A stretch of DNA of 64,000 nucleotides, taken from Turicibacter bilis (GTDB lineage: Bacteria > Bacillota_I > Bacilli_A > MOL361 > Turicibacteraceae). A program made the position numbers and the translations under genes. The stretch is from positions 992,001 to 1,056,000 of the forward strand of contig NZ_CP071249.1 in the NCBI RefSeq assembly GCF_024499055.1, read 5' to 3'. The notes beneath the pieces are model-generated. The model did not search any database. It saw nothing but the letters and a program-made list of their open reading frames with translations, and was not told the DNA's origin. Positions 58,781-59,188 of this stretch are shown here, piece by piece (the stretch's first letter is position 1; each line of letters starts with the position of its first letter).

Positions 58781-58898
58781 ATTGTCTAGCAACACTCGCA
58801 TAACACTTGTAAAGTTCAATAATGATTCATAACTTTTAGTTATTTTATCATTCTTTTCACTTTCAGCGTGTTATAAACGCTCGCTTATGCTTTTCTTG
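58781..58898 (-). repeat. Structured tRNA-operon spacer, copy 1
   Basis: 118 bases between tRNA-Val and tRNA-Gln, repeated at 59071-59188 with about 12 mismatches. Contains a stem AATGAT...ATCATT around TAACT/AGTTA and a second hairpin AGCGT/ACGCT. Confidence 0.88.
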
Positions 58899-58901
58899 TT
58901 A

Positions 58902-58977
58902 TGGTGGAGGATGACGGGCTCGAACCGCCGACCCTCTGCTTGTAAGGCAGATGCTCTCCCAGCTGAGCTAATCCTCC
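58902..58977 (-). tRNA. tRNA-Val (TAC)
   Basis: Acceptor GGAGGAT/ATCCTCC, anticodon stem TCTGC/GCAGA with loop CTTACAA (TAC), T-loop TTCGAGC, encoded CCA. Confidence 0.96.
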
Positions 58978-58985
58978 ATATTTTA

Positions 58986-59061
58986 TGGTGCCGGAAACAG
59001 GACTTGAACCCGCAACCTACTGATTACAAGTCAGTTGCTCTACCAATTGAGCTATTCCGGC
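58986..59061 (-). tRNA. tRNA-Thr (TGT)
   Basis: Acceptor GCCGGAA/TTCCGGC, anticodon stem ACTGA/TCAGT with loop CTTGTAA (TGT), encoded CCA. Eight bases from tRNA-Val. Confidence 0.96.
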
Positions 59062-59070
59062 TTTTTTTAC

Positions 59071-59188
59071 ATTGTCTAGCAACACTCGCATAACACTTGT
59101 AAAGTTCAATAACAATTCATAACCTCTAGTTATTTCATTGTTCTTTCCACTTTCAGCGTGTTATAAACGCTCATTTTTGCTTTTCTTT
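59071..59188 (-). repeat. Structured tRNA-operon spacer, copy 2
   Basis: Between tRNA-Glu and tRNA-Thr. Same length and same order of hairpins as copy 1; in the main stem AACAAT...ATTGTT replaces AATGAT...ATCATT, so pairing is kept. Confidence 0.88.

Follow-up and report, generated by a model that had tools for sequence, protein, structure and literature searches.

The window, the whole 64-kb stretch of Turicibacter bilis DNA that we analysed, holds a six-tRNA operon broken up by two copies, A and B, of a repeated sequence. Its order in the RNA is tRNA-Glu, copy B, tRNA-Thr, tRNA-Val, copy A, tRNA-Gln, tRNA-Lys and tRNA-Leu. The tRNA genes, a promoter-like site and a terminator-like hairpin all lie on the minus strand, and the relevant RNA is therefore that of the minus strand. 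The promoter-like motif also precedes tRNA-Glu in a congener (G001). The features, all on the minus strand, are as follows.

59298..59326: promoter-like TTGACA-17-TATTAT, 5′ of tRNA-Glu, at the start of the operon that holds both copies
58465..59268: six-tRNA cluster Glu-Thr-Val-Gln-Lys-Leu, broken up by copies A and B
59066..59191: copy B of the repeat in the tRNA-Glu/tRNA-Thr spacer, full covariance-model match
59111..59142: copy B helix P5 and apical part, with doubly changed pairs 59140-59113 and 59139-59114
58776..58901: copy A of the repeat in the tRNA-Val/tRNA-Gln spacer, full covariance-model match
58788..58891: copy A hairpin, mapped from the A2 consensus structure, with coordinates by arithmetic from the alignment
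58887-58891 and 58788-58792: copy A outer arms of P1
58868-58873 and 58801-58806: copy A arms of P3
58859-58863 and 58811-58815: copy A arms of P4
58821..58852: copy A helix P5 and apical part, with arms 58848-58852 and 58821-58825
58839-58843 and 58829-58833: copy A arms of P6
58426..58453: hairpin resembling an intrinsic terminator, 3′ of tRNA-Leu, at the end of the operon

The initial annotation had drawn attention to two spacers of 118 bases each, 58781-58898 and 59071-59188, as about 90% identical. They align without gaps and share 106 of 118 bases, and both the coordinates and the identity were correct. Folded as minus-strand RNA, copies A and B each form a single long interrupted hairpin that beats shuffled sequences (z of -3.8 and -3.9, respectively). 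The compensated change that had been seen between them is real: AATGAT/ATCATT on the minus strand of copy A stands against AACAAT/ATTGTT in copy B, altering two adjacent pairs of helix P5 (58850-58823 and 58849-58824 in copy A; spacer positions 52, 53, 78 and 79). The G001 copy at the Glu-Thr site, which is orthologous to copy B, bears the copy-B letters, placing the origin of the paired change on the copy-A lineage. A second hairpin proposed at the same time, AGCGT/ACGCT, is indeed identical in copies A and B, but it is not conserved, being broken in most relatives, and part of its bases belongs to the longer hairpin.

Other RNA features were noted in and around the window. The tRNA-Lys/tRNA-Leu spacer (58549-58610, minus strand) contains a promoter-like TGATATAAT whose G001 counterpart is TGGTATAAT; judged by this conservation, tRNA-Leu may have its own promoter. 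A clear T-box leader lies at 11300-11514 (minus strand; 128.5 bits, Rfam), and a borderline Rfam match to the enterobacterial small RNA STnc490 at 27941-28057 (minus strand; 57.0 bits against a cut-off of 56) is probably spurious. Just beyond the window, lone 5S rRNA genes sit within a long tRNA cluster in the order Leu-5S-Asn (G000:C1 1058367-1058475 and 1059773-1059881), as do those at L154 10362-10485 and 11768-11891; they are remote from any 16S or 23S gene, and G001 has the same arrangement.

There is strong support for regarding the two spacers as copies of a dispersed structured repeat of about 120 nt, not as a mere local duplication or simple spacer. Covariance models were built from 11 copies (R1) and then from 31 (R2). 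Copies A and B, the only model matches within the window, scored 122.3 bits (E 1e-24) and 122.9 bits (E 7.4e-25) with R2 and filters off, E-values that are rough because calibration was shortened. By covariance model, the genome that contains the window (G000) has 9 copies and its congeners G001, G003 and G004 have 8, 24 and 45; the sister genera G005 and G006 have five and one, respectively, and their matches are weak. A plain DNA search returned strong matches from this genus alone: G001 has them in tRNA clusters, G003 in rRNA operons and G004 between protein genes. Unit length ranges from about 117 to 130 nt. Copies within tRNA or rRNA operons number 2 in G000, 4 in G001 and 19 in G003, and in G000 and G004 most copies lie 3′ of protein genes. 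Three of the G003 copies fall between 23S and 5S according to Rfam, and the other 23S-5S placements in that genome were assigned mostly from shared flanking sequence rather than by a separate rRNA search. The initial annotation had suggested a covariance search and had regarded an absence of further copies and covariation in other genomes as evidence against its reading; on this point the outcome was the opposite, with further copies that covary, and the same unit recurs in other tRNA and rRNA operons, where it had suggested looking.

Outside this group the searches returned little. A class-wide model search of 395 genomes under stricter filters recovered the bacterial family only, apart from a single weak match such as chance would produce, and a more sensitive search of 40 relatives found nothing credible outside the family. 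Rfam 15 gave no match on the elements at gathering or relaxed thresholds, and no copies were found in phage and plasmid records. Pattern scans for the 3′ motif across genomes and viral contigs yielded scattered unrelated matches, and with R1 neither the firmicute ones nor any of the viral ones were credible. In the published literature (PMC) we found no description of the repeat in Turicibacter and no similar stop-codon repeat matching it. Together these results strongly support a previously uncatalogued and sizeable repeat family, carried by one bacterial family.

In each copy an A-rich linker accompanies a single long, interrupted hairpin made up of helices P1 to P6, which includes a conserved GAAARU/AYUUUA helix and a 5′ bulge of roughly four bases; the unit ends read either AAAAGGYTGA...GAARCTAGATT or GAAAAGC...GCTAGACAA. 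We do not separately claim a boxA-like antitermination signal (TTGAACTTTACA), because the covarying helix P4 accounts for its ACTTT bases. Across 63 matches representing 58 distinct copies, aligned by fitting to the covariance model, standard pairs occupied 90.3% of cells compared with 63% in shuffles, and two-sided changes occurred at 30 of 31 pairs. The covariation score was 0.676, compared with 0.195 after shuffling and no more than 0.142 when partners were slid, and none of 500 shuffles reached any of five structure measures. Because this alignment was fitted to the model, a MAFFT alignment of 11 copies made independently of it is the cleaner control, and here too covariation exceeded that of shuffles (0.287 versus 0.108; 0 of 500). 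Helix P5 covaries across the family, and the fifth pair of P3 is CG in 23 copies, AU in 16, UA in 5 and GC in 4. The copies share descent and their cells are not independent events, yet positions such as this one need repeated paired change. Conservation of the fold while the letters change strongly supports a structured repeat, and the family-wide covariation in both alignments lends strong support to the selection on folded structure that had been proposed from copies A and B.

The sense strand is favoured as the folded form. On this strand one G-U pair is retained in 55 of 58 copies, and G-U cells number 147 against 32 A-C cells (55 against 32 when the three pairs with G-U as their main or a frequent state are set aside). 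The sense strand also folds better than the antisense in 56 of 58 copies with RNA parameters. As DNA parameters give the same preference (55 of 58), this comparison fits either RNA or single-stranded DNA of that strand.

Copies follow the CCA ends of tRNAs, 23S, 5S and protein genes, at A-rich, TAA-containing sites directly 3′ of the gene and oriented with its transcription. Counted from the locus table, 27 of 38 protein-gene loci have a match that starts no more than 18 nt from an upstream same-strand stop codon; among the 19 matches with a scorable upstream frame, 12 have a gap between stop codon and P1 of exactly 2 or 7 nt, distances that agree with the pair of TAA triplets in the leader TAATATAAAAGG. 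Placement is alike in the sister genus G005, with weaker matches. The host genes are ordinary and of mixed function, including those for a peroxiredoxin, a PSP1-domain protein, nrdD, a deoxynucleoside kinase and a phosphoribosyltransferase (by Pfam) and purL, purB, dUTPase, thymidine kinase and yebC (named by eye from sequence). Tandem arrays are frequent at protein genes and reach eight units. Exceptions are an antisense array before pstC, an antisense pair beside rimM and two copies 3′ of the terminator of an rRNA operon.

Homologous sites differ in whether they hold a copy. The spacer that carries copy A in the window is empty in G001 (Val-TATAAAATCA-Gln); the Met-Asp spacer is filled in G001 and empty in G003 (Met-AAA-Asp); the 23S-5S spacer is filled in G003 and empty in G000. 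Even among the rRNA operons of the single genome G003, the spacer between 5S and tRNA-Gly has a copy in four operons and lacks one in others. At protein genes, G000, G001 and G004 have a copy at purL and G002 and G003 have none, and purB has one copy in G000, three in G004 and none in G001, G002 or G003. The purL-site copies differ much in sequence with the fold kept. The units of a single G004 array are strongly diverged among themselves, and two unlinked G004 arrays (417 kb and 703 kb) contain near-identical units. This pattern of presence and absence at homologous sites, extending to the rRNA operons of one genome, makes the element look mobile. Mobility is well supported by these comparisons, with insertion as the simplest reading, although repeated loss is formally possible at each site, and movement would be by transposition, not by recombination alone. 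Several copies are flanked by A-rich direct repeats; low complexity masks their exact ends, and no clean target-site duplication was discerned.

Additional modules occur near some copies. One is a second repeated motif, CACAGGATAAGA flanked by a hairpin on either side, which reappears downstream of element arrays and was not found in the window, and a further module, GGACCCCTGCGCTACG...CTGGTAGGG, lies in or adjoins several protein-gene copies, which suggests composite repeats. Their positions are listed here by locus.

L146 3082-3547 (plus strand): CACAGGATAAGA motif
L173 2081-2092 (minus strand): CACAGGATAAGA motif
L184 6764-6775 (minus strand): CACAGGATAAGA motif
L153 3550-3683: GGACCCCTGCGCTACG...CTGGTAGGG module
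L196 4850-5043: GGACCCCTGCGCTACG...CTGGTAGGG module
L176 and L181: GGACCCCTGCGCTACG...CTGGTAGGG module just behind the element

At two loci (L185 4892-5023 and around, in G004, and L180 in G001), nrdD is seemingly interrupted, adjacent to a GIY-YIG/NUMOD3 open reading frame with an element copy beside it; no Rfam intron matched there at gathering score.

We also looked for a protein that might move the element. The Y1/RAYT proteins are a transposase family tied to REPs. Y1 transposases (PF01797) number five in G000, seven in G003 and none in G004, which is the richest genome with 45 copies, and this absence leaves mobilization by a RAYT unsupported. Integron integrase (TIGR02249) gave no hit above cut-off in eight genomes, in which only generic tyrosine recombinases were detected, and no autonomous parent transposon was met among the loci read. 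Exactly between two G003 copies (L196 4922-6083) lies the gene for a HUH-type replication protein of 301 aa (Pfam REP_ORF2-G2P), with two large serine recombinases nearby. As a candidate autonomous form this protein is only a lead, and Pfam describes it as replication-associated.

Among known repeats, several invite comparison. The REP/BIME sequences of E. coli and relatives are hairpins interspersed in the genome and frequently arrayed; some of them lie within 15 nt behind a stop codon and are able to stall ribosomes there (PMC12306157), and according to another account (PMC3733652) REPs are palindromes of 20-40 bp. The element resembles them in its proximity to stop codons and its tandem clusters of up to eight units. 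It differs from them in its length of 117-130 nt and its six helices, in having no GTAG/CGTC-type tag at its ends, in being most abundant in a genome devoid of the Y1 transposase, and in occurring also inside rRNA and tRNA operons. Nearest in kind are bcr1-bcr18 of the Bacillus cereus group, likewise lineage-restricted intergenic repeats of a Gram-positive group. In excerpts of their description (PMC3446304), bcr1-3 are MITE-like, and about half of the bcr copies are transcribed, some in untranslated regions or operons and some with conserved RNA structure. The element shares with MITE-like repeats of the bcr1 type its presence and absence at homologous sites; compared by description, stop-codon-anchored placement and copies in rRNA and tRNA operons are not features of the bcr repeats in those excerpts. 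The tRNA-linked repeats of E. coli (TLR; rrA, rrB and rrF) also lie directly behind tRNA and rRNA genes within operons, involving 22 genes at ten loci, and at its 3′ end each one repeats the final 18-19 bases of the tRNA or rRNA that precedes it (PMC8144298). By contrast, the element ends in GCTAGACAA and an A-rich linker unrelated to tRNA ends, the spacer ends GACAATAAGAAAAAA and GACAATGTAAAAAAA being unlike the 3′ ends of tRNA-Val and tRNA-Glu, and it has protein-gene hosts too. Integron attC sites are shape-conserved hairpins immediately behind genes. The element shares that shape conservation and position, but comes without integron integrase, core-site consensus or cassettes between its tandem units. 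By the tests made, the element appears to work like a REP or bcr repeat and to be a member of neither.

On balance, the sequence comparisons favour, as the probable explanation, a non-autonomous mobile hairpin that is folded in the sense transcript and acts as a REP/BIME-like 3′-end structure. Positioned at a gene's 3′ end in the sense direction, the hairpin would join the upstream transcript as its 3′-end structure; as the flanks are A-rich and have no terminator U-run, the operon should remain transcribable through the element. We infer that the copies are transcribed and that the folded structure may then affect the RNA, slowing 3′-to-5′ decay or meeting the terminating ribosome as a REP/BIME repeat does. 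The fold may persist in part because a folded insertion does no harm or is of use, and in part because movement depends on it. The serious rival, which we regard as possible if somewhat unlikely, is a purely selfish mobile hairpin with no host function, whose fold is kept for a transposition machinery acting on RNA or single-stranded DNA and for which gene 3′ ends are a preferred or tolerated target. Patchy occupancy of homologous sites in related genomes, spread into even rRNA operons, very unequal copy numbers between congeners and the mixed functions of the upstream genes would all fit such an element. However, the diverged copies at purL and within the G004 array retain the fold, so that old sites too seem to preserve it, and tolerance alone does not explain the very tight spacing from stop codons.

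The remaining alternatives appear weaker. The initial annotation's proposal that a folded structure is under selection is strongly supported, but the repeat is not specifically a tRNA-operon element, being found also behind 23S, 5S and many protein genes. A precursor-processing element or small RNA of tRNA and rRNA operons, with the hairpin serving as a site of cleavage or being set free as a stable RNA, is therefore improbable in our estimation: it would suit the conserved fold, the many copies in such operons and the precedent of E. coli tRNA-linked repeats, some of which are processed to small RNAs (PMC8144298), yet many homologous spacers do without the element with no apparent harm, and copies in G000 and G004 are mostly 3′ of protein genes. 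Shape conserved above sequence, position behind stop codons and direct tandem arrays would also be expected if the element were an attC-like recombination site in a system of the integron type, with a tyrosine recombinase as its mover. The family's tyrosine recombinases are generic, with no integron integrase above cut-off, a GTTRRRY core was not seen by eye, the arrays contain no gene cassettes and copies sit in rRNA operons, making this reading very improbable. Scarcely credible is a local spacer duplication whose paired changes came from templated repair, one arm being copied from the other, with no selection on structure; two copies in one operon and two adjacent paired changes could reflect such an event, but the fold varies at nearly every pair across the distinct copies, with several pair types per position.

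These uncatalogued, covarying structured repeats enter rRNA and tRNA operons and are anchored at stop codons with near-nucleotide precision, and they raise the question of what moves such hairpins. Natural pairs with and without the element, available even between rRNA operons of a single genome, suit tests of what a 3′ hairpin does in RNA maturation, decay and termination. It is conceivable, but we think it unlikely, that the element targets RNA 3′ ends or translation stops, inserting through the folded sense transcript or single strand by an undescribed mechanism. In that case, mRNAs, tRNAs and rRNAs of the family would carry one common 3′-end structure and share a form of post-transcriptional control.
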